From: Campylobacterales bacterium
GTDB lineage: Bacteria; Campylobacterota; Campylobacteria; Campylobacterales; Sulfurimonadaceae
NCBI GenBank assembly: GCA_026390135.1
Contig: JAPLGN010000047.1
Span: 1-41,893 of the forward strand
Direction of reading: 5' to 3'
DNA: 41,893 nucleotides
Translations under genes and position numbers: made by a program
Shown here: positions 3,344-37,150 of the stretch, piece after piece
Numbering within the stretch: position 1 is the first letter of the stretch
Layout of the letters: each line of letters starts with the position of its first letter
Notes under the pieces: model-generated
The model's input: only the letters and a program-made list of their open reading frames with translations
What the model was told of the DNA's origin: nothing
The model's database searches: none

Positions 3344-3359
3344 TGCATTTTGCGTTCTT
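3344..3359 (-). promoter_or_regulatory. nif-type -24/-12-like motif upstream of the SIR2-like gene
   Basis: On the minus strand reads AAGAACGCAAAATGCA. It matches the nifB copy (AAGAACGCTATTTGCA) at 13 of 16 positions and ends 32 nt before the ATG. The AG and GC dinucleotides have the 10-nt spacing of a sigma-54 -24/-12 element, but the first G of the usual GG is A. No TTGTC lies at the expected distance upstream. Confidence 0.55.
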
Positions 3360-3515
3360 GTTGGAAATAGGAGTAAAATTATCTTATTTTGTAGGATTTT
3401 GGAGATGCACAGTTGAAGTGGGACAAAAATGTCTAAGAATATGTTTTAAAGAGCAGTTGAATGATTATTTTATAATAAGCTGATAGAAGATTACTTTATC
3501 ATTACTTGTTTGAGT

Positions 3516-3521
3516 TATAAT
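3516..3521 (+). promoter_or_regulatory. Probable -10 element for the 3551 operon
   Basis: A perfect TATAAT lies 29 nt before the ATG at 3551, in an AT-rich stretch with no strong -35, as is usual for the vegetative promoters of this phylum. The rest of the 239-nt gap (3312-3550) holds the SIR2-side motif and nothing else I recognise. Confidence 0.55.
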
Positions 3522-3550
3522 CCAGTCAGTTACAATAAAAGAGGTTTAGT

Positions 3551-3877
3551 ATGGACATGTTGCTTGGATTTGAATTGTTTTTATTTTTTATTGTCGCCGG
3601 CTTATTTTTGATATGGATATGGGCTATGGTGGATATCATTACTTCCAAATTCAAAGAAGATCTAATGCAGATTATTTGGCTTTTGGTTGTTTTCTTTTTA
3701 CCTTTTATTGGTGTATTGCTATACCTTTTAATTGGTCGATCCATGAAGCAAATTCCTCTCGATGAAGATATTCATGGCAAAAAATATGATCATTTGATGA
3801 AACTTAAAGCACTTTTGGATGATGGAGCTCTCACTCCCGAAGAATACGAAATCGAAAAACAAAAGATATTGAGTTAA
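3551..3877 (+). CDS. Small membrane protein with PLDc_N and SHOCT domains
   Basis: 108 aa. Two hydrophobic segments (about residues 5-27 and 40-62) are followed by a cytosolic tail. The pattern WAMVDIITSKF...WLLVVFFLPFIGVLLYLLIGR is that of the phospholipase D N-terminal-like (PLDc_N) membrane domain. The last 30 residues (KLKALLDDGALTPEEYEIEK) are a SHOCT short helical domain. There is no PLD catalytic HKD motif, so this is not an enzyme of that family. Probably co-transcribed with corA, whose start is 17 nt downstream. Role unknown; an envelope stress or membrane-assembly function would fit but is inference. Confidence 0.8.
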   Translation: MDMLLGFELFLFFIVAGLFLIWIWAMVDIITSKFKEDLMQIIWLLVVFFLPFIGVLLYLLIGRSMKQIPLDEDIHGKKYDHLMKLKALLDDGALTPEEYEIEKQKILS

Positions 3878-3893
3878 TGATAGACAGGTACCT

Positions 3894-4961
3894 ATGTCTA
3901 AATCTTTAAGCAACCTATCCCATAAAGCAGGATTACCTCCCGGGGCTATTGTTCACGTAGGCAATGTTCATCAAGAGGATACAAAAATATCCCTAGTCAA
4001 TTACAATATTGAGAGTATCGAAGAACGCAATCTTGAGTCATTGGAAGAACTTTTAGAGTATAGAAACAGCAATATGGTTACATGGGTGAGGGTAGAAGGG
4101 TTGAGTGACGCTGATCTGATCGGAAGAATCGGAGATCTTTTTGATATTCATCCTCTCGTTATCGAAGATATTTTGACAACACACCAGAGACCTAAATTTG
4201 AAGAATATGACCACTACTTGTACATTGTCCTCAAAAGCCTCATATCTGAGGATGAGCAGTTTACGGTTAAAGATGAGCAAATCAGTATTTTGGTTCTTGA
4301 TCATTTTGTGTTCACCTTCAAAGAAAAATCGGATGAACTTTTTTCCCCTGTCATGCAGCGTATTAAAACCAGTAAAGGGCATTTTAGAAGCATGGGTGCA
4401 GATTATCTTACCTATGCGATATTGGATGTCATTGTGGATAACTTATTTGTTCTGATTGATTCTCTGGATGAGACAACTCTCGGCCTAGAAGACTCTCTTA
4501 TGGCGGATGAACCTACGCGTTTAACGCTCATTATGATTCAAAAACTCAAAAGAGAGCTCATTCAAATACGAAAATTTGTTTCGCCGCTTAGAGAGCTGAT
4601 GGCAGGAATGCTGCGCAGTGACTCGGAACTGATACATGAAAAAACGCACATTTATTTGAGAGATGTCTCCGATCATGCTATTCGTATCATCGAATCAATT
4701 GAATCGTACCAAAATGTTCTCGGCGGTTTATTGGATATCTATATCTCAAGTATCAGTAATAAAATGAATGAAGTGATGAAAGTCTTGACGGTATTCGCCT
4801 CGATCTTTATCCCTTTGACCTTTATAGCCGGTATCTATGGGATGAATTTTACCGATATGCCTGAGTTGCACTGGAAGTGGGGATACCCAGCCATTTGGGG
4901 CGTATTTATCATGACTACTGTCGGATTGCTTGTCTATTTCAAAAAGAAAAAATGGCTATAG
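3894..4961 (+). CDS. corA: CorA-family magnesium/cobalt transporter
   Basis: 355-aa inner-membrane channel for Mg2+ (also Co2+ or Ni2+). A large soluble N-terminal domain with the VIEDILTTHQRPKFEEY segment typical of the family is followed by the long stalk helix. Two C-terminal transmembrane segments flank the signature YGMNF, whose GMN selectivity motif is residues 316-318. The short C-terminal tail ends in lysines (FKKKKWL), as in CorA. It lies 17 nt after the PLDc_N/SHOCT gene. Length and ending are normal. Zn2+ efflux (ZntB) is less likely because the GMN motif is intact and the rest fits CorA. Confidence 0.95.
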   Translation: MSKSLSNLSHKAGLPPGAIVHVGNVHQEDTKISLVNYNIESIEERNLESLEELLEYRNSNMVTWVRVEGLSDADLIGRIGDLFDIHPLVIEDILTTHQRPKFEEYDHYLYIVLKSLISEDEQFTVKDEQISILVLDHFVFTFKEKSDELFSPVMQRIKTSKGHFRSMGADYLTYAILDVIVDNLFVLIDSLDETTLGLEDSLMADEPTRLTLIMIQKLKRELIQIRKFVSPLRELMAGMLRSDSELIHEKTHIYLRDVSDHAIRIIESIESYQNVLGGLLDIYISSISNKMNEVMKVLTVFASIFIPLTFIAGIYGMNFTDMPELHWKWGYPAIWGVFIMTTVGLLVYFKKKKWL

Positions 4962-5029
4962 GATTTTTTTGAATAGGCAGTTAACGTAATTTTGCTAAAA
5001 TGAATCTATACATTCCCTAAGGTATCACG

Positions 5030-6814
5030 ATGATTCCATTCATAAATTTTACACTTGTGCCTATACAGTTTGGTTATATCACTGCAGACATACAAGCAAA
5101 TCTACTCAAAAATATTTCTAATGAGACAACCATGATTTGGATGGGCATAGTCGCATCTCTGATTATGGCTATTTTGTTTATTCGAATAAAAATCAAACAT
5201 CATTGGAATAACACAAGCATTATTCCAATGTTTATCACCTCCTTTTCACCATTTATTGTAATAGTAGCGCTGCTTTTTGCGCTCTCAGATATGCCTGACA
5301 ACAGTGTCTTGATTATTCTCTATTCTCTTGCGTCTTTTTGGCTTGCTATGACTCTTCTGCAAATGCCGTTTAAGCTTTTAAATTTTTGCAATCGTATGCT
5401 TTTTTATACGTCAAGCAGTTTTTTTGCACTAGCGGGAAGTATTTTACTCTTCAAGCAGCTCAGTGAAATTGCTTCATACAATTTTTATTTGGATGCAGTC
5501 TCTTTGTTTACGTTACTTGCCATCGTATCAAAACTTGGAATAATCACTGGGTTGTATTTGTATGGGCATATGCTTGTACCTACACTGCTGAATCGATGGT
5601 CACATATTTTTCCGTCATGGATATCAATGTGGGTTATCCGACTGTTTTTACGTATACTCTTTTTCATATTTGCGCTCTTATGGCTTGGTAATTATCTGAA
5701 TTTTTCACTAAAAGTACTCATGCTTGTTTTTATTTTGTCAATGTTTATCGGGGTTTTTGTGATGATTCGTAATCACATGGATTGGCTTATGGATCACCTT
5801 TATACCTCCATGCATTACACACCGGTTGAATTGGACAATATTGCTTATAATTTTCAGAAGAGTAGCTTTTTGTTATTTTTGTTTTTCTTGTATACCATGA
5901 CTCCATTTTTTCCAGAGCTTTTAGGATTTCAAAAGGTACTCCAAACGGTTATTCTTATTAAAACATCTCTGTTGGAACTTTCACTGTTTCAGCTAATAAG
6001 TGCGATTTTTATTTTTAATCTTCTCTATAGTCTGCTCTATATTGTTACAAAAAGAGCACGACTCTTTAGAATGTTCCGAGACAGTATCAATGTTAAATCG
6101 CTTGAGGCATTGACTCTTAATCTTGGACTGTTAATAATTTTAATTTTGACTTTTATGCAAATGGATCTCTCTTGGCGTGTTTTTGTCCCTATAGCCGGGG
6201 CACTTGGGATAGGATTTGGATTTGGACTTCAGACAATTTTGAATAACTATATGAGTGGATTCATTGTCCTGTTCGCAAAAAAATTGCGCATTGGTGATAT
6301 CGTAGAGTTACCGGGGAATGCGGGAAGTAGCGTTGGAAATACAAGTGGTACGATTGTCGGGACCGTAGAAGCGATCGATATCCTATCTACTACATTGAGA
6401 ACAGTCGACGGAATCGAAATCTCTATTCCAAACTCCTTTTTTATTGCAGAAAAAATTATTAACTATTCACAAACAACCCCATATGTTCGAGTAAAAATTG
6501 CAATAGGTGTTGATTATGCAACGGATCTTGATCTTGCTGAACGTCTCATTGTCGAGGCAATGAGTGAATGTGATGAGATTGAGCAAGAAATGGAGAAAGG
6601 GATAATATTTATGCAATTTGGATCAAGTTCACTGGACCTGGCCCCTTACTTTTGGACCAATATTCGAAAGATACGAGGACTTGGAGTGCTAAAGGGAGAG
6701 CTTATGAGCCGTATTTTGAGTAAATTCCGTGAACATGGAGTAACGATTCCCTTCCCTCGAAGTGAAATCACCATTCGTAATCCAATTACGATCAATCAAG
6801 AAAATACGATTTAA
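5030..6814 (+). CDS. MscS-family mechanosensitive ion channel with long N-terminal membrane region
   Basis: 594 aa. About eight hydrophobic segments span residues 1-390. The conserved MscS core follows: a Gly/Ala-rich pore helix (PIAGALGIGFGFGLQTILNNYMSG, split here by the helix kink), the beta domain with KKLRIGDIVEL, a TVEAIDILSTTLRT segment and IPNSFFIAEKIINYS, and then the alpha/beta C-terminal domain. This is the larger multi-helix type (as in YbdG- or YjeP-like channels) rather than the small three-helix MscS. It would release solutes during hypo-osmotic shock. The stop overlaps the stop of the convergent gene at 6811 by 4 nt, leaving no room for a terminator between them. Confidence 0.93.
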   Translation: MIPFINFTLVPIQFGYITADIQANLLKNISNETTMIWMGIVASLIMAILFIRIKIKHHWNNTSIIPMFITSFSPFIVIVALLFALSDMPDNSVLIILYSLASFWLAMTLLQMPFKLLNFCNRMLFYTSSSFFALAGSILLFKQLSEIASYNFYLDAVSLFTLLAIVSKLGIITGLYLYGHMLVPTLLNRWSHIFPSWISMWVIRLFLRILFFIFALLWLGNYLNFSLKVLMLVFILSMFIGVFVMIRNHMDWLMDHLYTSMHYTPVELDNIAYNFQKSSFLLFLFFLYTMTPFFPELLGFQKVLQTVILIKTSLLELSLFQLISAIFIFNLLYSLLYIVTKRARLFRMFRDSINVKSLEALTLNLGLLIILILTFMQMDLSWRVFVPIAGALGIGFGFGLQTILNNYMSGFIVLFAKKLRIGDIVELPGNAGSSVGNTSGTIVGTVEAIDILSTTLRTVDGIEISIPNSFFIAEKIINYSQTTPYVRVKIAIGVDYATDLDLAERLIVEAMSECDEIEQEMEKGIIFMQFGSSSLDLAPYFWTNIRKIRGLGVLKGELMSRILSKFREHGVTIPFPRSEITIRNPITINQENTI

Positions 6815-7314
6815 TGACATCCTTTTCCCGTATAACAACTATTAGCTGCAACGATTTTTGAAAGTGCTTTGTCAAAACTAAATGGTGCGTTTAGATCGTC
6901 CAGTATTTCATGATAAAACACTGCTCCGTCTTTTGAAATGATAAATAGGGTTTTTGCAAGTTCTTTGTTGCTTAGACGAACTCCGTAATAATCTCCGAAT
7001 GCTTCGTCATAATCATATCCGCTCAACCACTCTTCAAGAGCCGGTATTTCATCTTTGTTATTAGCAACAATAAGTGCTTTCGTGATTCCGTTCAGTGCAT
7101 TGATAGAGAGGAGCGTATCAATTTCTTTTAGTTGTGAAATGAGAGCATTATCAATAAAAGGAGTAGTGATGAGGAGCTGCGTAAATCCGTTTTGCCCTCC
7201 GATGCTAAATGTCTCATTCTTGTGATTTTTAAGGCTCACTTTTTCAGAGGCATAACCGATATCGAGGGGCATATCTTCAAGATACAGCGTGGATGTGTTG
7301 TAATTTATCTGCAA
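6811..7314 (-). CDS. Thiol peroxidase (Tpx)-like redoxin lacking the peroxidatic cysteine
   Basis: 167 aa with a TTG start, supported by TAGGAG seven bases upstream. The fold signals match Tpx: a loop LLITTPFIDNALISQ where Tpx has F-P-S-x-D-T-x-V-C, then IVANNKD, a segment AFGDYYGVRLSNKELAKTLF, and VFYHEILDD near the end. The peroxidatic cysteine position (T-P-F-I-D-N-A-L-I) has no Cys and the resolving Cys is also missing. Instead the tail ends CYTGKGCH, a C-x5-C pair next to a terminal His. So peroxidase chemistry by the normal mechanism is not expected. It overlaps the NifX-like gene by 38 nt and is surely translated with it, which suggests a role in nitrogenase maturation or redox protection. 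Confidence 0.6.
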   Translation of the reverse strand: MQINYNTSTLYLEDMPLDIGYASEKVSLKNHKNETFSIGGQNGFTQLLITTPFIDNALISQLKEIDTLLSINALNGITKALIVANNKDEIPALEEWLSGYDYDEAFGDYYGVRLSNKELAKTLFIISKDGAVFYHEILDDLNAPFSFDKALSKIVAANSCYTGKGCH

Positions 7315-7720
7315 TTTCGACTCCTATAATAAAATGGTTCATTGCTTCGTGGGTCGTTTTCATAAAGGGAGGAATCTTATGAATTTTTATCCCGACGTTG
7401 CGCATCGCATAAAAGGTATTGAGACAATATTGACCTGTGATGAGATAGTCGCATTTGCCGATGACTTCCAAAAGTGCATAATGCTCACTGATGTGGTGAG
7501 GATCGAGGCTCTTATCTGTGTCACAGCTGCTTTCTTTCATCTTTGGATCACACACCATCTCCCCATCGCATTTCTTCCAAGGGTTAAGTTTGGACTCAAT
7601 ATGCCGATAGCGAATGTCGTTACGTTCTCCGGTAAGTTCATACAGTGCGAACATCATTGCGCTACACGGATTGTAGTGGTAGACACGCTTGAAGGCATCT
7701 ATCGGTATAGCAACGATCAT
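7277..7720 (-). CDS. NifX/NafY-type Nitro_FeMo-Co domain protein
   Basis: Start set at the internal ATG (7720), which has AAGGAG six bases upstream; the upstream in-frame ATG at 7753 has no such site. The 147-aa product opens MIVAIPIDAFKRVYHYNPCSA, and ends with CDYLITGQYCLNTFYAMRNVGIKI and a helix, the layout of the dinitrogenase iron-molybdenum cofactor biosynthesis domain (NifX, NafY, the NifB C-terminus). It is enriched in Cys and His between residues 45 and 80 (KKCDGEMVCD, ESSCDTD), which is not typical of NifX and could bind metal. It is divergent from nifB and shares the 16-nt promoter motif. Likely a carrier for NifB-co or FeMo-co; NifX proper is one option, so no symbol is given. Confidence 0.72.
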   Translation of the reverse strand: MIVAIPIDAFKRVYHYNPCSAMMFALYELTGERNDIRYRHIESKLNPWKKCDGEMVCDPKMKESSCDTDKSLDPHHISEHYALLEVIGKCDYLITGQYCLNTFYAMRNVGIKIHKIPPFMKTTHEAMNHFIIGVEIADKLQHIHAVS

Positions 7721-7748
7721 TGTCAGCTCCTTGTATTGACTGGATTTA

Positions 7749-7764
7749 TGCAATTTTTATTCTT
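7749..7764 (-). promoter_or_regulatory. nif-type -24/-12-like motif of the NifX-like operon
   Basis: On the minus strand reads AAGAATAAAAATTGCA, ending 28 nt before the ATG at 7720. A TTGTCA (minus strand, 7799 to 7794) begins 46 nt before the TTGCA half, close to the 47-nt spacing at nifB and nifH. Confidence 0.55.
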
Positions 7765-7824
7765 GCTTTCATTATGTATAGGGTTTAAAAAGATGACAAC
7801 GGCTTTGTTTGGATAAATACAAAA

Positions 7825-7876
7825 TTGTCACGATTGGTACACGATTACTTCCTAATCAATAAGAACGCTATTTGCA
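7825..7876 (+). promoter_or_regulatory. nifB promoter region: TTGTCACG element and -24/-12-like motif
   Basis: TTGTCACGATTG starts at 7825; a second CACGATT follows 11 nt after the first (7829 and 7840), one helical turn. AAGAACGCTATTTGCA lies at 7861-7876. The start-to-start distance from TTGTC to TTGCA is 47 nt, exactly as at nifH. A second candidate, TGGCAC at 7899-7904 followed by GGCA, has a better -24 half but 11 instead of 10 nt between GG and GC. Confidence 0.55.
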
Positions 7877-7950: not shown

Positions 7951-9366
7951 ATGAGCTGTTCATCAACTGGAACTGAAGCTTTTATGCCCGATGATATTAA
8001 GGAAAAGATCCACAATCATCCATGCTATTCTGAGGGTGCTCACCACCACTATGCGCGTATTCACGTAGCTGTTGCCCCTGCGTGTAATATCCAATGCAAT
8101 TACTGTAACCGTAAATACGACTGTTCGAACGAGTCACGCCCCGGTGTAACTTCTGAGCGTCTCTCCCCTGTGGAAGCTGCGAAGAAAGTTATGTTCGTCG
8201 GCGGAGAGGTTCAACGTATGAGTGTACTGGGGATTGCAGGTCCGGGAGATGCGTTGGCAAATCCGAAAAAGACATTTGAGACGTTTGGTATGGTGCGCGA
8301 ATTTGCCCCTGACCTTAAACTCTGTCTTTCTACAAATGGATTGGAATTGCCAAACTTTATCGATGAGATGGTTGAATACAACATCGATCACATTACCGTT
8401 ACGATCAACAGCGTTGATGAGACGGGTGAGATCGGAAGTTTAATCTATCCGTGGATTTTCCATGACAATAAACGTATCTATGGAAAAGAGGCATCAAAAA
8501 TCCTTTTGGCAAATCAGCTTGAAGGGATGCGTAAATGTGTCGAAAAAGGGATTTTGATTAAAGCAAACTCGGTTCTTATCCCGGGTATCAACGACCAACA
8601 TCTCCCTGAAGTATCGCGTAAACTCAAAGAGATTGGGGTATTTTTGCACAACATTATGCCAATCCTCTCAGAGCCTGAGTTCGGAACCAAATTTGCCCTT
8701 GATGGAGTTCCTAGTGCAACCGATCAAGAGCAAATGGCAGCGCAAGAAGCGTGCGGTCATGATATGAAACTGATGCAGCATTGCCGTCAGTGTCGTGCGG
8801 ATGCCGTAGGACTTATCGGTGAAGACCGAGGCGGAGAGTTTACGAAAGATACGTTTGCAGGGCTTAGTTTCGATGAACTACAAATCAAATACGATCTCGA
8901 AGCGCGTCAAGAAGCACAGGCGAAGATCGAAGAGTTCCGATTTTTCCTCGACCGTGCAAACGACCGTGTCCGAAAAGAAAAAGAAGAACTCAGCTCCAAT
9001 GGTGTGACGATTCTCGTTGCGGTTACGACTGCGGGTGAGGGGATGATCAACATGCACTTCGGAAGCGTTAAAGAGTTCTTGATCTATGAAGCAGGAGACA
9101 AAGGGATTCGATTTATCCATCATCGTAAAGTCGATGCAGAATATTGTGCAGGTCCTGATGGGACGAATCCGCTTGCTCCGATATTAGAGAAACTTAAAGA
9201 CGTACAGATGGTTCTAACGGCTAAAATCGGCGGATGCCCGCAAGATGATCTAAAAGCAGCGGGAATCGTTGCCGATCAAAGTTATGCGTATGAGCCTATT
9301 GAGATTTCAGTTCTTAAAGCATCACGCAAATATTTCGGTGTGGATGAAAACGCGGAAGTGAATTAA
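7951..9366 (+). CDS. nifB: Nitrogenase cofactor biosynthesis protein NifB, with C-terminal NifX-like domain
   Basis: Radical SAM enzyme that makes NifB-co, the 8Fe-9S-C core of FeMo-co. 471 aa. The radical SAM cluster motif C-x3-C-x2-C is at C45, C49, C52 (CNIQCNYC), preceded by the conserved NHPCYSEGAHHHYARIH region. GIAGPGDALANP and LCLSTNGL are typical NifB segments, and a further cysteine cluster HCRQCRADAVG lies near residue 275. From about residue 350 a Nitro_FeMo-Co domain follows (TTAGEGMINMHFGSVKEF...IGGCPQDDLKAAGI), the two-domain form found in many bacteria. Start ATG has AAGGAGA upstream. First gene of the nifB-nifV run, led by the motif at 7861-7876. Confidence 0.97.
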   Translation: MSCSSTGTEAFMPDDIKEKIHNHPCYSEGAHHHYARIHVAVAPACNIQCNYCNRKYDCSNESRPGVTSERLSPVEAAKKVMFVGGEVQRMSVLGIAGPGDALANPKKTFETFGMVREFAPDLKLCLSTNGLELPNFIDEMVEYNIDHITVTINSVDETGEIGSLIYPWIFHDNKRIYGKEASKILLANQLEGMRKCVEKGILIKANSVLIPGINDQHLPEVSRKLKEIGVFLHNIMPILSEPEFGTKFALDGVPSATDQEQMAAQEACGHDMKLMQHCRQCRADAVGLIGEDRGGEFTKDTFAGLSFDELQIKYDLEARQEAQAKIEEFRFFLDRANDRVRKEKEELSSNGVTILVAVTTAGEGMINMHFGSVKEFLIYEAGDKGIRFIHHRKVDAEYCAGPDGTNPLAPILEKLKDVQMVLTAKIGGCPQDDLKAAGIVADQSYAYEPIEISVLKASRKYFGVDENAEVN

Positions 9367-9381: not shown

Positions 9382-9463
9382 CATCCAAATCGGCAAAGCC
9401 ACTTTGGATGGCGGGGACACTTTTGTCCCCTGCACCCCCCTAAAGCTTTCCGCATAAATGCGG
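9382..9463 (+). other. Three successive hairpins between nifB and nifV
   Basis: CATCCAAA (9382-9389) pairs with TTTGGATG (9403-9410), with an inner GGC-AAA-GCC. GGGGACA-CTTT-TGTCCCC spans 9413-9430. CCGCA-TAAA-TGCGG spans 9450-9463. None is followed by a T-run, so simple rho-independent termination is not shown; mRNA processing or partial attenuation between nifB and nifV is more likely. Confidence 0.6.
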
Positions 9464-9487
9464 AAGATGATGGAAAAGGAAAATGTT

Positions 9488-10603
9488 ATGGCTCTAATCA
9501 ATGACACCACATTACGCGACGGTGAGCAAGCCGCTTACGTCGCGTTCAATACCGAGGAAAAAATCCGTATCGCAACATTGCTGGATGCGTGCGGAGCGGA
9601 TGAACTCGAAATCGGTATTGCGGCAATGGGTGTCAAAGAACGTGAGGATATAAAAACGCTTCTTTCCCTGGGTTTGAGAGCGCGTATGATGACATGGAAT
9701 CGAATGAAAATGGAAGACCTTGATGCATCGCTTTCTTGCGGTATTGGAGCGGTTGATTTATCGATTCCCATTTCGGATCTTTTGATCGATGTCAAATTCG
9801 GCGGAAGTAAAATAAAAGTATTACGCGAACTTGAACGAGTCGTCACTGCTGCCACTCGCGAAGGACTGTTTGTTTGTATTGGCGGTGAAGACAGCTCACG
9901 GGGCAGTTTTGAATTTATCAAAGATGTGATGGAACTCTCACGTGAATGCGGAGCACAGCGTTTCCGCTATTGCGATACGATCGGTATTATGACACCTACA
10001 CAAACATATAAAGCGGTCAAGTCACTGACGGATTTAAATCTCCTCCCGATAGAAATGCACACGCACAACGATTTTGGACTCGCCAATGCGAATGCCCTCA
10101 GCGGCATCGACGCAGGGGCAATCAGCATGAACACTACGGTAATGGGATTAGGTGAGAGGGCAGGTAATGCTTCATTTGAACAGATTCTCATGGCATTGAA
10201 ACATCTATATGGTGAGGCACGTCCCATCGATCCTATCCTTATTCGAAATTTAGTAGGTACGGTTGCGGGTGCGGCTAATATGACGCTTGCACCCAATGCA
10301 CCTATCCTGGGTGAACATATTTTTGCCCACGAGAGCGGCATTCACGCAAGCGGTATGATGAAAGACTCTAACGCGTATGAACCGTATGAAGCGAGTGAAA
10401 TGGGATTAGAAAGTACGTACCCCATCGGTAAACACTCTGGCAGTGCAACGATACGCTACCATCTTAAAAGGATGGGAATCAGTGCGGATAGCACTATATT
10501 GAGTGATCTTCTCCCTAAAATTCGAGAGATCGTCACTTCACGTAAACGAGTCTTGGATCTGTTCGAACTTAAATCTCTCTATCAGGACGCAGCATGTATA
10601 TAG
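9488..10603 (+). CDS. nifV: Homocitrate synthase NifV
   Basis: DRE-TIM metallolyase that condenses acetyl-CoA and 2-oxoglutarate to homocitrate, the organic ligand of FeMo-co. I chose the ATG at 9488 (AAGGA seven nt before, protein beginning MALINDTTLRDGEQ) rather than upstream in-frame ATGs, giving 371 aa. Visible motifs are DTTLRDGEQ, the RYCDTIG strand, EMHTHNDFGLANAN (metal-binding HTH), GLGERAGN and HESGIHASGMM. The absence of a long regulatory C-terminal domain fits NifV or short homocitrate synthases, and its place right after nifB makes nifV the best name. Its last 10 nt overlap the GNAT gene. Confidence 0.95.
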   Translation: MALINDTTLRDGEQAAYVAFNTEEKIRIATLLDACGADELEIGIAAMGVKEREDIKTLLSLGLRARMMTWNRMKMEDLDASLSCGIGAVDLSIPISDLLIDVKFGGSKIKVLRELERVVTAATREGLFVCIGGEDSSRGSFEFIKDVMELSRECGAQRFRYCDTIGIMTPTQTYKAVKSLTDLNLLPIEMHTHNDFGLANANALSGIDAGAISMNTTVMGLGERAGNASFEQILMALKHLYGEARPIDPILIRNLVGTVAGAANMTLAPNAPILGEHIFAHESGIHASGMMKDSNAYEPYEASEMGLESTYPIGKHSGSATIRYHLKRMGISADSTILSDLLPKIREIVTSRKRVLDLFELKSLYQDAACI

Positions 10604-11421
10604 GGTGGTTAAAGTTCGTTGATGTACCTGATTTGATTAAAATTTCCGAGGAGACGGGATGGCTGCTGGATGGCTATCATGTCAAACTGATGATGATGCA
10701 CGCCCCACATCTGTGTTACGGTGCGTATGATGAGGGGGTACTTGTCGGTGCAGTCATGGCAATTGAGTTTGAATCCTCCGCGATGATAAAATATTTCATG
10801 GTCAAACCCACCCACCAAAAGCAAGGGATTGGAGGACGTTTATTTAATACCCTTTTTGGTGTTTTAAAAGAGGAACATCCATCGCTGTATTTACATGCCA
10901 ATCCTCATTTACAAGATTTTTTTGAGCAGAACGGGTTTAAAGCAGTTATGGAAGTAGGGCGCTTTCTCAATGTCGGTAAAGTTCCTCCATTTAGTTTCAC
11001 GAATGCACAGGCCAAAGAACTTGACGGCGGAAACTTTGACGCGATGATTCGTAAAATTGATTTTGAGACGTTTGGTGAAGACCGCATGAGTTTTATGCTT
11101 GATGAGATGGAACGTAACAGTTCGTTAAAATTTGCACTTCCAAATTCATTCCAACACTCCAGTGTTATCAATGCTCGTGGTGTATATTTAGGTCCATGGC
11201 AATGTCGGCAAGGGTTTGAAGAGGAAGCGGAGAAAATGATGCAGGGCGTTTTATATTTCCGTGGATTGAAAAAAGTCCTTGCCGATGTTCCGATGGGGAA
11301 TACAAAAGCAGTCAATTTGTACGAGAAATACCACTTTCAACAAAAAGGGACGTTTGTCCACATGTCGTATGGAGAAGTGCATACTGTTAAATTTGAAAAC
11401 ATATATGCATTTTCACTGTGA
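10594..11421 (+). CDS. GNAT-family protein with two acetyltransferase-like halves
   Basis: 275 aa. The N-terminal GNAT domain shows IKYFMVKPTHQKQGIGGRLF (acetyl-CoA loop Q-x-x-G-I-G, about residues 71-84) and then FFEQNGFKAVME. The second half ends ADVPMGNTKAVNLYEKYHFQQKGTFVHM, the N-x-x-A-x-x-L-Y-x-x-x-x-F signature of a second GNAT fold whose acetyl-CoA loop is weak. It overlaps nifV by 10 nt (translation coupling), so it is made with the nif enzymes. The substrate is unknown; acetylation of a nitrogenase maturation partner or a metabolite is speculation. Confidence 0.78.
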   Translation: MYIGWLKFVDVPDLIKISEETGWLLDGYHVKLMMMHAPHLCYGAYDEGVLVGAVMAIEFESSAMIKYFMVKPTHQKQGIGGRLFNTLFGVLKEEHPSLYLHANPHLQDFFEQNGFKAVMEVGRFLNVGKVPPFSFTNAQAKELDGGNFDAMIRKIDFETFGEDRMSFMLDEMERNSSLKFALPNSFQHSSVINARGVYLGPWQCRQGFEEEAEKMMQGVLYFRGLKKVLADVPMGNTKAVNLYEKYHFQQKGTFVHMSYGEVHTVKFENIYAFSL

Positions 11422-11456
11422 ACAAAATTTGCATTTAATACAAAAAAAGGATTATT

Positions 11457-11654
11457 ATGTCAGATATGACCGAACAAGAACAAAGAAAAGAGTTAGCAAA
11501 ACTTAAACGCTTGGCAATTGAAGTTGCCTCTGAAATTCACGATATTGTTGAAGATACTGTTTGGAGTAATCATGTGAAAATGCCTGAACTGGCTGAAAAA
11601 CTCTACATTGCAGTTGAAAAAGCAAATGCGTATAAAGCAGAGCATTCTCTGTAA
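11457..11654 (+). CDS. Small DUF683/CCE_0567-like nif-associated protein
   Basis: 65 aa, strongly helical. LKRLAIEVASEIHDIVED...MPELAEKLYIAVEKANAYK matches the pattern of the small DUF683 family, which is often next to nifX in nif clusters and forms a two-helix hairpin. There is no cysteine. ATG has AAAGGATT upstream, and the gene sits 35 nt after the GNAT gene and 11 nt before the next. The exact role of the family is not established. Confidence 0.62.
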   Translation: MSDMTEQEQRKELAKLKRLAIEVASEIHDIVEDTVWSNHVKMPELAEKLYIAVEKANAYKAEHSL

Positions 11655-12931: not shown

Positions 12932-13084
12932 AGTAGGCTCTTTTTACCTAAGTTTAACCATTTAAGATGATTTATTAGGAGATAGACAGTCTAATTTTTA
13001 ATCAGTTGATAAATCTAGGATCTAAAATGTCGTAATTTTAAAGAAGATCACCCCTGCATCACCTATTCCTACAATTTTGTTTCA

Positions 13085-13147
13085 TTGTCGTACCTTTGTC
13101 ACGGTTGTTTTGCAAAATGTCCAAAAAAGCTTAGAACACCCTTTGCA
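13085..13147 (+). promoter_or_regulatory. nifH promoter region: paired TTGTC elements and -24/-12-like motif
   Basis: TTGTC at 13085 and again at 13096 (11 nt apart), the second in TTGTCACGGTTG. TAGAACACCCTTTGCA lies at 13132-13147, 35 nt before the nifH ATG. TTGTC (13096) to TTGCA (13143) is 47 nt, the same as at nifB. A short palindrome TCAC-A-GTGA at 13152-13160 lies near the predicted transcript start. There is no TGT-N10-ACA NifA site in this gap that I can see. Confidence 0.6.
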
Positions 13148-13173: not shown

Positions 13174-14097
<924 letters not shown>

Positions 14098-14573: not shown

Positions 14574-16040
14574 ATGGGACCAGAATCACTAGAAGCCAAA
14601 CAAAAAGCGGCCATTGAAGAGATCTTAAAAGCGTATCCTGAGAAAGCGGCGAAAAACCGTGAAAAACATCTCGGTGTCGGATCTCCAAATGATGAAAATC
14701 AAAAAACGTGCGGCGATGTCCGTTCAAACAAAAAAACCGTTCCCGGAGTTATGAGCCAACGTGGTTGTGCTTATGCAGGTTCTAAAGGGGTTGTATGGGG
14801 TCCTGTCAAAGACATGATTCACATCAGCCACGGTCCTATCGGATGCGGTCAATACAGCCGTGCAGGTCGTCGTAACTATTACATCGGTGTAACGGGTGTT
14901 GATACGTTTGTAACGATGAACTTTAGCTCGGATTTCCAAGAGAACAACATCGTTTTCGGTGGAGACAAAAAATTGGGTAAATGTATCGATGAAATCGAAG
15001 AACTTTTCCCACTTAATAACGGTATCACTGTTCAATCAGAATGTCCAATCGGTTTGATCGGGGATGATATCGGTGCAGTAGCACGTGTCAAAGCAAAAGA
15101 GCTTGATAAAACAATCGTTCCAGTTAACTGTGAAGGTTTCCGTGGGGTTTCTCAATCCCTTGGTCACCACATTGCTAATGATACGGTTCGTGACTTTATC
15201 TTTGATGCTAAAGTAAATGTAGATACCAGTGACGTAATAGCAACCGATTATGACGTAGCCATCATCGGAGACTATAACATCGGTGGTGACGCATGGTCAA
15301 GCCGTATTCTTTTAGAAGAGATGGGTCTTCGTGTTGTAGCACAATGGTCAGGAGATGCAACTCTTAAAGAGATGGCATTGACACCAAAAGTAAAATTGAA
15401 CTTGCTTCACTGCTACCGTTCAATGAACTACATCAGCCGTCACATGGAAAAAGAGTACGGGATTCCTTGGATCGAGTACAACTTCTTCGGGCCGTCACAA
15501 ACCATCAAATCACTCCGTAAAATCGCGGCGTTCTTTGACGAGGGTGTACAAGCTAAATGTGAGGAAGTTATCGCTAAATATCAACCAATGATTGATCAAG
15601 TGATTGCAAAATACAAACCTCGTCTCGAAGGTAAAACAGTAATGTTGTTCGTCGGCGGTCTTCGTCCTCGTCACGTTATCGGTGCTTACGAAGATTTAGG
15701 TATGGAAGTAATCGGTACAGGTTATGAGTTCGCTCATGATGATGACTACAAACGTACTAAAGAAGAGATTTTCCGTTCAACCGTTATCTACGATGACGTC
15801 AACGAGTATGAGCTTGAAGCGTTCGTGAAAAAACTTCAACCTGACCTTGTAGCTTCAGGGATCAAAGAGAAGTATGTATTCCAAAAAATGGGTCTTCCGT
15901 ATCGTCAGATGCACTCATGGGATTACAGCGGACCGTATCACGGGTACGATGGATTTGCTATCTTCGCACAAGATATGGATTTAGCGATTAACTCACCAGT
16001 ATGGGCACATTCAAAAGCACCATGGGAAAAGGAAGGATAA
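14574..16040 (+). CDS. nifD: Nitrogenase molybdenum-iron protein alpha chain
   Basis: 488 aa, half of the catalytic alpha2-beta2 MoFe protein. P-cluster ligands C65 (RGCAYAG), C91 (GPIGCGQ) and C157 (SECPIG) keep the family spacing. FeMo-co ligands are C280 ([10 protein letters not shown]) and H447 ([13 protein letters not shown]). [16 protein letters not shown] is also conserved, supporting the Mo type rather than V or Fe-only nitrogenase. RBS GGAAGAGG precedes the ATG. Four nt separate it from nifK. Confidence 0.99.
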
Positions 16041-16044: not shown

Positions 16045-17589
16045 ATGCAAGAAATAGAAAAAATCGTAAACGGGAAAGACCTGTTTAAACGCCCTGAGTA
16101 CCAAGAGGTGCTCGCAAACAAAAAACAATTCGAGTCTTCTATGCTTGCAGTTAACCCTGCAAAAGTAGATGAGATCGCAGAGTGGACAAAATCATGGGAT
16201 TACCGTGAGAAAAACCTTGCTCGTGAAGCGATTACAGTTAATCCAGCAAAAGCATGTCAGCCTCTTGGTGCTGTTATGGTTGCGCTTGGATTTGAAGGTA
16301 CAATGCCGTATGTTCATGGTTCTCATGGATGTGTAGCATATTTCCGTTCTTACTTTACCCGTCACTTCAAAGAGCCGACTCCTTGTGTTTCTGACTCTAT
16401 GACTGAAGATGCTGCGGTATTTGGTGGTTTGGTAAATATGAAAGAGGGTCTTAAAAACTGTGCTGCTGTTTATAAACCTAAAATGATCGCTGTTTCTACC
16501 ACTTGTATGGCAGAAGTTATCGGTGATGACTTGATGGCGTTTATTATTGCAGCAAAAGAAGAGGATGGCGGAGAATACCTAGCGGCTGATTATCCAATCC
16601 CTTATGCGCACACTCCTTCATTCGTAGGTAGCCATATCACTGGATATGACAACATGATGCACGGTATCATGTCTCAGCTTACTGAAGGACAAAAAGGCGA
16701 AACAAAACAACGTATCAACATCATTCCTGGTTTTGAAACGTACATCGGAAGCCTTCGTTCAGTAAAAACTATCGTAGAAGCGTTCGGCACAGACTATATC
16801 ATGTTGGGCGACCACTCTGATCAATGGGATATGCCAGCGGGTCAATACGAAATGTTCCAAGGCGGAACAAAAATTGAAGACGCAAAAGATTGTATCAACT
16901 CAAGTGCTACTATCTCTCTTCAAAAATACGCTACCGTTAAAACGATGAAAATGGTCGATAAACGTTGGAAACACCCGGGCGGATTCTCTAACCCAGTCGG
17001 TCTCAAAGGGACGGATGAGTTCGTAATGAAACTCGCAGAGCTTACTGGTACAGAAGTACCACAAAAACTCAAAGTAGAGCGCGGCCGTTTGGTTGATGCT
17101 ATGCAAGACAGCTATCCGTACATGCACGGTAAAAAATTTGCTATCTGGGGTGATCCTGACTTCCTAATCGGTGCAGTATCATTCCTCCTTGAGATGGGTG
17201 CAGAGCCGACTCACGTTCTTTGCCACAATGCACCAAACGGTTGGGAAGCAGAGATGAGAGCAATGCTCGATACGTCTCCTGCAAAAGACAGTTTGAATGT
17301 ATGGGCTGGTAAAGACTTGTGGGCAATGCGTTCACTTCTCTTCACTGAGCCTGTCGATTTCATGATCGGTAACAGCTACGGTAAAGAGTTGATGCGCGAC
17401 ACCGGCACTCCGTTGATCTACATTGGATTCCCGATTTTCGACCGTCACCACCTACACCGTTACTCTATCAGCGGATACGATGGTGCGTTGAACCTTCTTA
17501 CTTGGATCACGAACAAAGTTCTTGACCAGTTGGATGAAGATACCAAAGGTATCGCAACAACCGACTACTTCTTCGACCTTATACGCTAA
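16045..17589 (+). CDS. nifK: Nitrogenase molybdenum-iron protein beta chain
   Basis: 514 aa, the partner of NifD. P-cluster cysteines are C71 (NPAKACQPLG), C96 (HGSHGCVAYF) and C154 (STTCMAEVIGDD). The segments CVSDSMTEDAAVFGG and GFPIFDRHHLHR are also typical. The N-terminal extension that wraps the alpha chain is present (residues 1-60). It is the last gene before a strong terminator; nifE and nifN do not follow, so they must lie elsewhere in the genome. Confidence 0.99.
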   Translation: MQEIEKIVNGKDLFKRPEYQEVLANKKQFESSMLAVNPAKVDEIAEWTKSWDYREKNLAREAITVNPAKACQPLGAVMVALGFEGTMPYVHGSHGCVAYFRSYFTRHFKEPTPCVSDSMTEDAAVFGGLVNMKEGLKNCAAVYKPKMIAVSTTCMAEVIGDDLMAFIIAAKEEDGGEYLAADYPIPYAHTPSFVGSHITGYDNMMHGIMSQLTEGQKGETKQRINIIPGFETYIGSLRSVKTIVEAFGTDYIMLGDHSDQWDMPAGQYEMFQGGTKIEDAKDCINSSATISLQKYATVKTMKMVDKRWKHPGGFSNPVGLKGTDEFVMKLAELTGTEVPQKLKVERGRLVDAMQDSYPYMHGKKFAIWGDPDFLIGAVSFLLEMGAEPTHVLCHNAPNGWEAEMRAMLDTSPAKDSLNVWAGKDLWAMRSLLFTEPVDFMIGNSYGKELMRDTGTPLIYIGFPIFDRHHLHRYSISGYDGALNLLTWITNKVLDQLDEDTKGIATTDYFFDLIR

Positions 17590-23598: not shown

Positions 23599-24578
23599 GA
23601 TTTCTCCATCAGTTTTTTTGCCATGGCCACAATTTTATCCGGTTGCGGGAGAGCGGCGTCTTCGAGATGTTTGGGGTAGGGCAGAGGTATTTCAGTAGTG
23701 CATAAGCGTGCCATCGGGGCATCAAGTTCAAAAAAAGCCTGTTCGTTGATTCGTGCCATAATCTCTGCAGAGATACTTCCCGATTTCCACCCCTCATCAA
23801 CTATCATTACACGATGGGTTTTACTAACTGATTTCATGATACTTTCATTATCCAAAGGACGAAGTGAACGCAAGTCAATAACTTCAGCATCAATCCCTTC
23901 AGCGATTAGAGTTTTCGCAGCTAGAAGTACTTTGAAAAGACTGCTTCCATAGGTTAAAATAGTTAAATCTTTACCTGCTCGCTGTATTCGTGCTTTTCCA
24001 ATAGGCAAAGGAAGTGCTTGGGTATCTAATGCTCCCTTGGAGTTGTAAATCATCGCGCTCTCAAAAATTAATACCGGATCAGGATCCGCAAGCGCCAAAC
24101 CTATCATATTGTGCGCATCTTGTATGGTTGCAGGGGTTAGCACTTTGAGTCCTGGGATATGAGCATACCACCCTTCCAGAGAGTGAGAGTGTTGTGCGGC
24201 GAGCTGTTTACCTCCTCCTGTTGCCATGCGTATCACCAGCGGAACGTTAAACTGGCCGCCGGACATGTGCAGGAGAGTCGCGGCATTGTTCATGATCTGA
24301 TCAAGTGCCAAAAGGCTGAAGTTGACCGTCATGATCTCGACGATGGGACGCATACCGCCTAAAGCTGCACCAATACCCGCACCGGTAAACGCCGATTCAG
24401 ACAAGGGGGTATCAATAATTCGCTGTGGACCAAAGTGTTCCAACAGTCCCATGCTGACTGCATAACTTCCCCCATAATGACCAACGTCTTCGCCCATCAA
24501 AAAAACTCGCTCATCGTGTTCCATTGCTTCTCTCAATGCTTGGCGTACTGCTTCTCGATAAGTTATGATTGAGCTCAT
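23595..24578 (-). CDS. 2-oxoacid/acetoin dehydrogenase E1 component, beta subunit
   Basis: 327 aa. The transketolase pyrimidine-binding and C-terminal domains are clear: [47 protein letters not shown], then [22 protein letters not shown] and the C-terminal [12 protein letters not shown] and [13 protein letters not shown]. With E1 alpha it binds thiamine diphosphate and decarboxylates the substrate. Overlaps E2 (4 nt) downstream and the chimeric remnant (4 nt) upstream. Substrate (pyruvate, acetoin or branched-chain) cannot be told from this reading. Confidence 0.95.
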
Positions 24579-24760
24579 TGCGCAACCTTAGAAAAATAAA
24601 TATTTTTTTCCAAATCTTCATTGGATTCCAATATACTGTTTTCGTATAAGGGCACCGCTTCGTTGATGATATCGGTAATTTCAGTTTCAGGTTTATTATA
24701 TTCCATTGCTTCTTGCAATGCTTGGCGTAGTGCTTCTTGATAAGTCATAATTGATTTCAT
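24575..24760 (-). CDS. Chimeric 61-aa remnant: E1-beta start fused to E1-alpha end
   Basis: The first 20 residues ([20 protein letters not shown]) copy the E1 beta start ([20 protein letters not shown]). The rest ([25 protein letters not shown]...VAQ) copies the E1 alpha end ([25 protein letters not shown]...VAQ). It overlaps E1 alpha and E1 beta by 4 nt each, at identical junctions (CAATGA). So alpha-beta was tandemly duplicated and most of the inner beta and alpha was deleted. The fragment is still in frame and translatable but carries no catalytic part; whether the peptide does anything is unknown. Confidence 0.85.
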
Positions 24761-25718: not shown

Positions 25719-27470
25719 TTAATCTTCCAATGTTGAGGTATCGCCCTCAGGCAATCCCATTTCCCGAGCTTTTAGTAAACGTCGCATGATTTTTCCGCTT
25801 CGTGTTTTTGGTATATTTTGAGTAAATTCTATCTCTTTAGGCGCTACGGCACTGCCCAGTCTTTTACGTCCAAATCCGATTAGTTCGCGTCTGAGTTCTT
25901 CGCTTGGCTCAAAACCGGTTTTTAGTGAGACAAATGCTTTAACCAGCTGACCGATCATCTCATCAGGTTTGCCAATGACACCAACTTCTGCAACTGCGGG
26001 ATGCTCCATCAAGCAGCTTTCAACTTCAAATGGTCCAACCATGTGTCCGGAAGTTTTGATGATATCATCCGAGCGCCCGACAAACCAAAAATATCCGTCC
26101 TCATCTTTATAAGCGAGGTCGCCAGAGAGATACCAGCCACCGATAAAGCATTTAGCATAGCGTTCATCATCATGGAGATAGTTTCGAAACATCGAAGGCC
26201 ATCCCGGTTTGAGAGAAAGTTCACCCTCTTTACCAGCTTCCGTCACTTCGGTAACGGTGCCATCATCGTTGTGGCGGAGAATTGCGGCGTCGATTCCAGG
26301 GATAGGCCGTCCCATCGAGCCTGGACGAATTTCTTGTGAGAGGAAATTTGCGATCATGATTCCGCCGGTTTCCGTCTGCCACCAGTTATCATGGATCGGC
26401 ATTTTGAGTTTGTCCACTCCCCAGATCACAGCTTCGGGATTGAGCGGTTCACCAACACTTTGAATCAGGCGCAAATGGGACAGATTATATTCTTTGATCG
26501 GCTCATTATCCAGTCTCATTAAGCGTCTGATTGCTGTTGGGGCTGTATACCATATGCTTATTTTTTCATTTTCCAGCGTGGTGTACCAGCGTACTGCATC
26601 AAACTCCGATTCATCCACGACATTGGTGATTCCATGCAGCCATGGGGTGATGATTCCATAAGAAGTTCCCGTAACCCACCCCGGATCAGCCGTACACCAA
26701 TAGATATCACTGGGATGGAAATCGAGTACATATTTTCCGCTTGCCCAATGGGTGAAGATAGCTTTGTGCACATGTACTACCCCTTTTGGCATTCCGGTTG
26801 TACCGCTGGTAAAATGGAGAATTGACATATCTTCAGCATCGGTGGGGAGAATTTCGTAGATATCGGATGCTTTCTCCATCAGACGTTTCAAGGAACGTAC
26901 TTGTTCGCTTTCGTCTTCTTCGGCATCGATTAAGAATACTGTTTGCAGTTCCGGAAGCTGATCCAGAAGAGGTCGTATTTTTTTCTCAAAAAGAGCTTGT
27001 GTCGTAAGGAGCGCTTTGGCATTTCCACGTAATAGTCGCTGTAATATTGGTTCAGGTCCAAATTGTGAGAAGAGAGGACACATGACACTGCGGTTTTTGA
27101 GGATACCCATTGCGGCGATATAGAGTTCTGGCAACCGTGTAGAGAGAGTGAAAATACAATCGCCTTTGGAAAATCCAAGCAATGCCAGAACATTGGCAAA
27201 CTTGGAGGTCTCTTTTTTCATATCCAAAAAAGTATATACCTTTCTATCCCTACGTTCACCAATCCATATCAAAGCAGCTTTATTGGCTAACATGTTGTTG
27301 GCATGGCGGTCAATTGCTTCATGGGCAATGTTGAGCCCTCCTGAGGGTAATCCATCAAACTCTTTGGCAACCTTTTCCCATGTAAAAATTTCTCTCTCTT
27401 TATCATAATCAATTAAGCACGGGCGTATTGTCATCGTACTGAGTTCTTTATGAATCTCATTGATTTTCAT
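25719..27470 (-). CDS. Acetyl-CoA synthetase-like AMP-binding ligase
   Basis: 583 aa. ANL adenylating enzyme: P-loop [15 protein letters not shown]5 motif [12 protein letters not shown], hinge and A8 region [30 protein letters not shown], and C-terminal [11 protein letters not shown] with the catalytic (acetylatable) lysine. The NWWQTETGG and WVTGTSYG patterns point to acetate or propionate as substrate. Shorter than the 650-aa Acs, so closer to the AcsA type. First gene of the leftward operon; would turn free acetate, including that from an acetoin-type pathway, into acetyl-CoA. Confidence 0.88.
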
Positions 27471-33195: not shown

Positions 33196-33265
33196 ATCTA
33201 CCTTTTTTGACATCACATAAGCGATTTGGGTACACTAAACAACTTTATAAATCGGAACATAGCCA

Positions 33266-34123: not shown

Positions 34124-34129
34124 CTTTTA

Positions 34130-35710: not shown

Positions 35711-35860
35711 GTTTATCCTTATCGGCTGTTAATCTGGATATTATACACTTTTATAAAAAAATAGTATTGCAATACAGAGAACTCATAATAAAATCATATA
35801 AAATGAAAGTGATAGCAATAACTGTATTGTTAAATAAGTAAACATTGGATTCTTTTTATC

Positions 35861-35866
35861 TATAAT
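35861..35866 (+). promoter_or_regulatory. Probable -10 element of trpB
   Basis: TATAAT, 37 nt before the trpB ATG. No clear -35; the surroundings are very AT-rich. AAAGGAA just before the ATG is the ribosome binding site. Confidence 0.5.
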
Positions 35867-35903
35867 GACTCAATTTTTTTAAAATAATAAAAGGAAATAA
35901 CAT

Positions 35904-37121
35904 ATGGAAACTTCATATTTAGAGTCACATCCAGATGAAAACGGGTATTTCGGTAAATTTGGAGGGGCATATATTCCTCCAGTCTTAGAGCAGCCATTTG
36001 CCGATATCACCCAAGCGTATGCCGAGCTAAAAAACTCACCGGCATTTATTGAAGAGCTAAAATATGTTCGAAAACATTATCAAGGTCGTCCTACTCCTAT
36101 TTCATTTGCTAAAAATCTTACCGAACACTGCGGTGGAGCCAAGATTTATCTTAAACGTGAAGATCTAAATCATACAGGTGCGCACAAGCTCAACCACTGC
36201 ATGGCCGAAGTCATCCTTGCGAAACATTTGGGTAAGAAAAAAGTGATTGCAGAAACGGGTGCAGGACAGCATGGTGTTGCATTAGCGACGGCAGCAGCGT
36301 ATTTTGGTCTGGAGTGTGAGATCCACATGGGAGAAGTAGACATTGCCAAAGAATATCCCAATGTCGTACGGATGAAGATTTTAGGCGCACGTGTAGTTCC
36401 TGCGACACACGGGCTTAAAACACTCAAAGAAGCAGTTGACTCAGCGTTTGAGGCATACATCAAAGACCCTGTAAATGCAATGTATTGTATTGGTTCGGTC
36501 GTCGGCCCTCATCCGTTTCCGATGATGGTACGTGATTTTCAGTCAGTAATCGGCTTTGAAGCCAAAGAGCAGTTTCATGAAATGGAAGGGAAGCTTCCTG
36601 ATAATGTCATCGCCTGCATCGGTGGAGGATCAAATGCAATGGGTATTTTTGCAGGATTTATCGATGATGCAGCTGTCAATCTTTATGGAGTAGAGCCATT
36701 GGGTCGAGGTGAAGCATTAGGAAATCATGCCGCTACTTTAACCTATGGAGAAGAGGGGATAATGCATGGCTTTAATTCCATCATGCTCAAAGATGCCAAC
36801 GGCGATCCAGCTCCTGTATACTCGATCGGTTCAGGGATTGATTATCCGTCTGTAGGACCTGAACATGCTTACTTAAAAGAGATCGGACGAACAAAAGTAG
36901 GCCTTTGCAATGATGATGAAGCAGTAGATGCGTTTTATAAACTCTCACAATTAGAGGGAATAATCCCAGCACTCGAATCGGCTCATGCTGTAGCCTATGC
37001 TATGAAACTGGCAAAAACATTAGGTAAAGAGAAAACTATTTTGGTCAATCTAAGCGGGAGAGGTGATAAAGATATCGATTACGTGATCGAACACTATCCT
37101 ATACCCAATGCAAAGTTTTAA
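35904..37121 (+). CDS. trpB: Tryptophan synthase beta chain
   Basis: 405 aa PLP enzyme joining indole and serine. PLP lysine K95 in [11 protein letters not shown], the GAGQHGVA loop, the phosphate loop IGGGSNAMG, and [16 protein letters not shown] are present. It starts [21 protein letters not shown], as in TrpB1 proteins. trpA does not follow, so this gene stands alone; it may be a second trpB or one of a scattered trp set. Confidence 0.95.
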
Positions 37122-37134
37122 ATGTAGGTGATTA

Positions 37135-37150
37135 TAGAACGCATTATGCA
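37135..37150 (+). promoter_or_regulatory. nif-type -24/-12-like motif upstream of the tandem small Cys genes
   Basis: TAGAACGCATTATGCA; 14 nt after the trpB stop and 32 nt before the ATG at 37183, the same leader length as the SIR2-side copy. Fixed positions AGAA and TGCA agree with the four other copies. No TTGTC at the expected upstream place, which lies in trpB. Confidence 0.55.

Follow-up and report, generated by a model that had tools for sequence, protein, structure and literature searches.

The nitrogen fixation (nif) genes of a Campylobacterales bacterium of the family Sulfurimonadaceae lie on a contig of 41,893 nucleotides (nt), the whole stretch of DNA that was analysed and hereafter called the window, in which a 16-nt element recurs in front of nifH, nifB and three further genes or gene groups. 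Judged from the sequence, these five sites are probably -24/-12 promoters that are read by a sigma-54 factor dedicated to nif (RpoN2), the specificity of which is altered at the -24 position. The sites and their placement, the two types of RpoN in the family, the residue differences between these types and the split in promoter letters were all directly observed. The window is contig C39 of assembly G000, which comprises 1.87 Mb in 56 contigs and is 82% complete. Among the codes used for groups of genomes, g1 is taken as Sulfuricurvum and f1 as Sulfurimonadaceae, the family in which NCBI places both Sulfurimonas and Sulfuricurvum. The elements of the window are listed below.

3344..3359, minus strand: AG-type -24/-12 element before the SIR2-like gene, 32 nt to the ATG
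7749..7764, minus strand: AG-type element before the 'NifX-like' gene, 28 nt to the ATG
7861..7876, plus strand: AG-type element before nifB, 74 nt to the ATG
13132..13147, plus strand: AG-type element before nifH, 35 nt to the ATG
37135..37150, plus strand: AG-type element before the tandem Cys genes, 26 or 32 nt to the first or second ATG
26932..26947, plus strand: sixth match to the pattern, within the open reading frame (ORF) at 25719-27470 (minus strand) and taken as chance
11418..11433, plus strand: variant of TG form, lying 23 nt ahead of the Rop-like gene and seen with the first letters left free
13055..13070, minus strand: GG-form element in inverted orientation, upstream of nifH and 61 nt away from the forward nifH element

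The 16-mer pattern matched the window six times against 0.15 expected, and none of 100 dinucleotide shuffles reached six. In the whole genome (1.87 Mb) there were nine matches versus one for the pattern read backwards. Five of the nine are placed as promoters, all on the window contig; the other four (at 26932 and on C5, C18 and C31) lie within ORFs. This bears out the expectation of the first-pass annotation that matches would be confined to nif loci, as far as this genome is concerned. A re-scan with the pattern reproduced exactly the coordinates and strands of the five matches listed in that annotation, which had left the match at 26932-26947 (plus strand) unlisted. Its AG-N10-GC spacing, with A for the first G at all five sites, was likewise correct, and its distances to the ATG, given as 28-35 nt in four cases and 74 nt at nifB, agree with the 32, 28, 35 and 74 nt measured here, the Cys gene being the case that falls at either 26 or 32 nt. 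Sigma-54 hallmarks are present at the five sites in the form of the -12 GC and the 10 nt between the two dinucleotides, and the distances to the ATG, by nucleotide count, fit the placement of sigma-54 promoters. The -24 GG dinucleotide, which the nifH element of other families has, is absent at all five, with AG in its stead. The five sites were therefore filed as a variant that would work like a sigma-54 promoter, and not as canonical sites. The 'WAG' with which the pattern starts is a preference and is not strict, as the TG-form site at 11418-11433 illustrates.

The same element was then followed across the class at the nifH promoter. Among 397 genomes drawn evenly from the class, 75 have nifH, and the upstream regions of 73 were tabulated (the partial matches in G252 and G404 are not in the table), using an element score that weighted G and A equally at the first -24 place and penalised C and T. 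In families other than Sulfurimonadaceae, GGAAY-N5-NTGYA was found 35-46 nt before the nifH ATG in 42 of 45 genomes. No recognisable sigma-54 element was found upstream of nifH in three genomes of family f15 (G038, G148 and G420), each of which has a single RpoN that is encoded on another contig and does not fall into the nif-type groups of the tree. Within Sulfurimonadaceae, AG was present at nifH in all eight Sulfuricurvum genomes, the window included, and in all 12 genomes of groups g18, g20 and g21 that bear the family's RpoN2; GG was present in 4/4 genomes of g22 and in 4/4 genomes of g18 that have a different nif-type RpoN. Thus, 19 of the 23 carriers of the family's RpoN2 have A at nifH, as does the window.

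Because the same element precedes nifH with GG in other families, we read it as a sigma-54 element rather than as the site of another factor. The first-pass annotation had proposed a shared unusual sigma-54 or other factor, and of the two it is sigma-54 to which the GG-form element points. That the motif is a site for some other regulator, and not a promoter element at all, would accord with the missing first G of GG; this is highly improbable, however, in view of the GG-form bipartite element found in the 42 genomes above and of the Sulfurimonadaceae sites themselves, which face the downstream gene at short distance.

A distinct sigma-54 factor is encoded among the nif genes of the family. 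Of 24 other Sulfuricurvum genomes, 22 have at least one RpoN match, with two or more in 17 and one in 5. When the 75 nifH-bearing genomes were searched with RpoN2, a close relative (70-100% identity) was found in 23 of the 28 from Sulfurimonadaceae; four of the others have a relative of 45-48% identity that falls among nif-type RpoNs from other families, and no relative was found in the window's genome. None of five Sulfurimonadaceae genomes without a nifH match has a close relative. The family's RpoN2 proteins form one group with a support of 100 in a quick tree. The gene is found near nifE, nifN, nifX, nifA (TIGR01817, over the cut-off) and NifU-like and P-II-like genes (both under the cut-off) in G020, near nifN, nifX and nifA in G016, and near a NifU-like gene in G003. 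Furthermore, rpoN2 is itself preceded by an A-form element in 32 of the 34 Sulfurimonadaceae genomes in which it was located; a core match is lacking in G388, and the sequence of G394 includes no upstream DNA. The "unusual sigma-54" of the first-pass annotation thus has a counterpart in the relatives of the window's organism, where a distinct, nif-linked rpoN has an A-form site of its own and differs in the RpoN box.

Separately, four genomes of g18 (G173, G310, G353 and G405) combine RpoN1, the flagellar type, with a nif-type RpoN of the other-family grouping and have GG at nifH; their nif cluster looks to have been replaced by transfer.

To describe the RpoN proteins we use the residue numbers of Escherichia coli and Klebsiella, in which V396 of RpoN2 corresponds to T457, beside R456, as counted on an alignment with solved structures. 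The RpoN box is given as ARRTVAKYRE (PMC2725144, PMC6755734) and is described as sitting in the major groove at -24, where R455 and R456 are needed for binding (PMC7175178). In RpoN2 the box reads MVRR(S/V/L)IAKYR, with the threonine replaced and both arginines kept, the latter in all 35 family RpoN2 proteins. Residue 457 is T in 43 of 43 RpoN1 proteins (flagellar or unlinked), in 41 of 43 RpoNs of nif genomes in other families (the other two have S) and in 4/4 of the different nif-type RpoNs of g18. In RpoN2 it is S in 15 of 15 proteins from g18, g20, g21 and g22 (a further sequence is truncated at this position), and V in 16 and L in 4 of 20 from Sulfuricurvum. Residue 470 is S in 43 RpoN1 proteins, F in the 15 RpoN2 proteins of g18, g20, g21 and g22, and Y in the 20 of Sulfuricurvum. 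Residue 378 of the helix-turn-helix, E in canonical numbering and reported to have a part in -12 recognition (PMC4496707), is E in 35 family RpoN2 proteins and E in 41, I in one and Q in one of the 43 other-family RpoNs of nif genomes; in RpoN1 it is P in 26/26 proteins of Sulfurimonadaceae and 13/17 of other families. Further positions also differ. Among the best 120 of 2079 RpoN2 homologues, residue 457 is S in 92, V in 21 and L in 7, and precomputed matches to PF00309, PF04963 and PF04552 are present in 119, the exception being P0029, a protein of 375 aa without PF00309. RpoN2 thus has the activator-interacting, core-binding and DNA-binding domains that define the sigma-54 family.

We counted the first -24 letter over promoter-placed sites with that letter unconstrained, in loci fetched without using the motif and with the window left out; the sites are orthologous across genomes, so they are not independent of each other in these counts and Fisher tests on them exaggerate the significance. 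Sulfuricurvum gave 44 A, 3 T, 1 C and 3 G (n = 51), and g18, g20 and g21 together gave 44 A, 2 C and 1 G (n = 47), for a total of 88 A, 3 T, 3 C and 4 G among 98 sites. In g22 there were 10 G, 4 A and 3 T (n = 17), with all four A sites at rpoN2, and in other families G was found at 36/36 sites. The base after the GC was A in 150 of the 151 sites counted in these groups. One further site, in a g18 genome with the different RpoN type, has G first and T after the GC. A wider count that includes the window and loci fetched by the motif gave A at 110 of 125 sites of the AG lineages.

The A form is not restricted to a few genes. With motif-fetched loci included, it precedes 18 of 25 downstream gene families, 8 of the 18 being seen once, and its targets include rpoN2, nifH, nifB, the P-II-like, NifU-like, Tpx-like, SIR2-like and NifX-like genes, the Cys genes and others. 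Counts by downstream-gene orthologue also include motif-fetched loci and can include the window; on this basis, A was found at 5/5 sites for the SIR2-like gene, at 5/5 for the NifX-like gene and at four of five for the Cys genes, the fifth having G. In loci not fetched by the motif, the Cys gene sites were 2 A and 1 G (n = 3) and the nifB sites were A in 8/8; both nifB sites of g22 have GG.

An alternative is that RpoN2 is merely relaxed at the first G and that the A comes from mutational bias. Sites with GG, AG and TG do occur alongside the serine-type RpoN2 in g22, and the Rop-like promoters of Sulfuricurvum have T or C in 5/5 cases. Relaxed reading is nevertheless unlikely, given the 88 A of 98 against only three T and three C and the uniformity within single genomes, with A at 6/6 sites in G193 and 5/5 in G384.

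Flagellar promoters served as a control. With the first letter free, flgI was preceded by G in 23/23 Sulfurimonadaceae genomes and, with two genomes of family f19 added, by G together with T after the GC in 25/25. For flgE, all 16 core matches among the 23 Sulfurimonadaceae genomes have G, as do 18/18 with the two f19 genomes, all with T after the GC; seven of the 25 genomes have no core match at flgE, and in six of these seven a looser site, with GG and TGCT, is present, whereas G215 has none. Across flgI and flgE in the family, A was therefore found at 0 of 39 core matches (39/39 G). Neither flgI nor flgE was found in the four g22 genomes or in G003, and these five genomes have a single RpoN match, of RpoN2 type.

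These data bear on the possibility that it is the ordinary flagellar sigma-54 that reads the AG promoters, the A being neutral or merely weakening. Single changes in GG do occur in characterised sigma-54 promoters (PMC7910581). We regard this explanation as quite improbable all the same, as the flgI and flgE sites of the family are never A, the A form extends over the 18 gene families counted above, a distinct RpoN is encoded among the nif genes, and nifH has AG in G003, a genome that yielded no RpoN1, flgI or flgE.

Reading by RpoN2 can be put in the form of a mechanism. In the RpoN2 holoenzyme, the RpoN box would bind the -24 half of the element and the helix-turn-helix the -12 half, after which the linked NifA would remodel the complex and the DNA would open. 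In Sulfurimonadaceae, RpoN2 would have changed at T457 (to S, then to V or L in Sulfuricurvum) and at S470 (to F or Y). Alongside the RpoN box, the majority of the RpoN2 promoters would have gone from GG to AG, with RpoN1 keeping T457 and S470 and its promoters keeping GG. We infer that RpoN2 is the reader of the AG sites, that these residues cause the change of letter, and that nif is thereby insulated from flagellar control. An A on the top strand puts the methyl group of a thymine into the major groove from the other strand, and Val or Leu together with Tyr or Phe could, by reasoning, suit a contact there. A simple sequence of events would begin with T to S and relaxed reading; the promoters would next have turned to A, and S would last have become V or L in Sulfuricurvum. 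Group g22 clusters with Sulfuricurvum in the tree and would have reverted to GG at most promoters. Beneath this change there would be an older, order-wide split, in which residue 378 is E in most RpoNs of nif genomes and P in most RpoN1 proteins, and nif promoters have A after the GC where flagellar ones have T. As rpoN2 would lie within its own regulon, positive feedback is predicted.

Taken together, we lean slightly towards a two-channel sigma-54 system with a two-point code, in which residue 378 (E or P) pairs with the base after the GC (A or T), and residues 457 and 470 pair with the first -24 base (G or A). The switch at 457 and 470 would have arisen in Sulfurimonadaceae, spread over about ten or more promoters including that of the sigma factor itself, and been reversed in part in g22, a group without flagella or RpoN1.

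Several observations weigh against reading by an RpoN2 of altered specificity. The shift is found in one clade, so the coupling of residue and letter amounts to one or two events, and the deep branches of the quick tree are weak. Serine at 457 also occurs with GG (nifH in 4/4 g22 genomes; G164; G363), and g22, without flagella or RpoN1, is mostly GG, which speaks against a strict rule. Some sites in Sulfuricurvum also have GG, namely the Cys gene promoter in G365, the one that precedes the NifU-like gene in G001, and the inverted site at nifH (8/8). Family f19 has both kinds of RpoN yet GG at nifH, so the -24 difference is not required, and G003, without flgI, flgE or RpoN1 as far as found, keeps AG at nifH. 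RpoN2 is present in the Sulfuricurvum genome G011, in which nifH was not found, and G267 and G323 have flgI with no RpoN1 found. Finally, TGT-N10-ACA, the classical site of NifA, was found before nifH in 1 of 28 genomes of the family versus 1.5 in shuffles, and in 3 of 42 elsewhere versus 2.0, and is thus not enriched there. Three simpler rules were rejected: a strict residue-letter rule, because Ser at 457 occurs with both GG and AG; AG as the simple result of having two RpoNs, because f19 has two and keeps GG; and the restoration of GG whenever flagella are lost, because G003 keeps AG.

Divided sigma-54 systems have been described before. In Cereibacter (Rhodobacter) sphaeroides, RpoN1 serves nif and RpoN2 serves flagella, and the promoters are discriminated by the -11 position and the cognate activator (PMC11999139). 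The family studied here resembles it in having two sigma-54 paralogues, for nif and for flagella, and in a difference at the base after the GC, as known here from promoters and linkage; it differs from C. sphaeroides as described in that account in that the first G of -24 is A and the RpoN box is changed. Wolinella succinogenes, of the same phylum, likewise has a second rpoN beside its nif genes (PMC3372290). The account of Wolinella, as far as consulted, gives no promoter code, and in families other than Sulfurimonadaceae the RpoNs of nif genomes have Thr in 41/43 and the nifH promoters have GG. In Mesorhizobium loti and Rhizobium etli, a second rpoN dedicated to nif (RpoN2) is under NifA, and an atypical nifH promoter was suggested to be read by RpoN2 only (PMC3538637); the odd base there is at -12, unlike here, where it is at -24 and regulon-wide. 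With canonical sigma-54 (E. coli, Klebsiella, Aquifex), RpoN2 shares the three domains, R455/R456 and the -24/-12 spacing, but has S, V or L in place of T457 in the RpoN box. The split of sigma-54s between nif and flagella with a difference at -11 (C. sphaeroides) and a nif-linked second rpoN (Wolinella) are thus already known from these sources, whereas the combination of a -24 dinucleotide changed throughout a regulon with changes in the RpoN box appears to be new; no changed -24 code in this phylum was found in a weak search of the literature by titles and abstract openings of open-licence papers.

The -24 GG has been called a hallmark of sigma-54 promoters (PMC7910581), and the system would, if the reading is true, be a natural change of specificity at that hallmark base pair. 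The nif regulon of this family would escape a promoter search that demands GG. The differences in RpoN2 point to residues that may read the first -24 base pair, and nature offers variants with T and GG, with S and GG or AG, and with V or L and AG. The system could supply an orthogonal set of sigma-54 and promoters, and illustrates a way in which two regulons with a rare form of polymerase in common might be kept apart in a cell, such that nitrogen fixation and swimming may run on separate control channels.

Upstream of the promoters, other sequences were examined as activator sites. In a motif-chosen set, TGT-N10-ACA was found before 6 of 38 AG sites of Sulfuricurvum (mean 1.9, maximum 5 in 200 shuffles), and four of the six come from two regions between nifB and the NifX-like gene, each counted from both sides; one of these regions is that of the window. 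ACA-N4-TGT was enriched before nifH (23/23, against 1.1 in shuffles), nifB (9/11), the P-II-like gene (5/6) and the SIR2-like gene (3/4), and was not enriched before rpoN2 (2/30), the Tpx-like gene (1/4) or the Cys genes (0/4). A conserved block like ACAAATTTGTC, with TTTTGTC repeats, lies upstream of the family's nifH and nifB promoters (in the window at 7819-7829 and about 13066-13125). This block, unlike TGT-N10-ACA, is a lead as a candidate site of the linked activator. In the window it is represented by the following feature, an exact match and likewise a lead only.

7819..7829, plus strand: ACAAAATTGTC, candidate activator site between two divergent AG promoters

With one mismatch allowed, ACAAAWTTGTC matched the window seven times versus 3.6 expected, a number equalled or exceeded in 9 of 100 shuffles and hence not above chance.

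An inverted sigma-54-like element is also present upstream of nifH in 24 of 24 Sulfurimonadaceae genomes outside the different-RpoN type, the window included, and was found in 0/4 genomes of the different-RpoN type and 0/45 genomes of other families. In Sulfuricurvum it is of the GG form in 8/8. Its distance to the forward element is 61 nt in 9, 71-72 nt in 13 and 81 nt in 1 of 23 cases, in steps of about one helical turn. By crude ORF calls, the gene upstream of the inverted element varies and is often in the same orientation as nifH.

Profile searches placed nifB, a nifV-like gene, nifH, nifD and nifK on the window contig. The genes of the window that are referred to above are as follows.

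2481..3311, minus strand: SIR2-like domain gene (PF13289, 28.4 bits versus a cut-off of 24.5)
6811..7314, minus strand: thiol-peroxidase-like (Tpx-like) gene, a weak family match far under the cut-off
7277..7720, minus strand: 'NifX-like' gene, as labelled in the first-pass annotation, ATG at 7720, no Pfam or NCBIfam match
7951..9366, plus strand: nifB (TIGR01290, 554.6 bits)
9458..10603, plus strand: nifV-like homocitrate synthase gene (456.7 bits, under the cut-off of 462.9)
11457..11654, plus strand: Rop-like small gene (PF05082)
13183..14097, plus strand: nifH (TIGR01287, 417.6 bits)
14574..16040, plus strand: nifD (TIGR01282)
16045..17589, plus strand: nifK (TIGR01286)
37177..37626, plus strand: two small Cys-containing genes in tandem (75 and 70 aa), without a Pfam match

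No rpoN of either type was found anywhere in the 82%-complete assembly, and the window's sites are connected with the factor by way of relatives. Activator-domain matches in the window's genome comprise one strong match (241.8 bits) and seven others of 20-29 bits, and the strong one is a receiver-type protein, read by eye as FlgR. Both flgI and flgE were found in this genome, flgI being preceded by a GG-form site. Because these two genes are present and flgI keeps its GG site, the absent rpoN and nifA are read as gaps in the assembly, and the organism would carry rpoN2 outside the assembled contigs.

Elsewhere in the window, a 61-aa ORF at 24575-24760 (minus strand) resembles at its start the start of one adjoining dehydrogenase-subunit ORF and at its end the end of the other, and looks by eye as if it were the remnant of a duplication and deletion.

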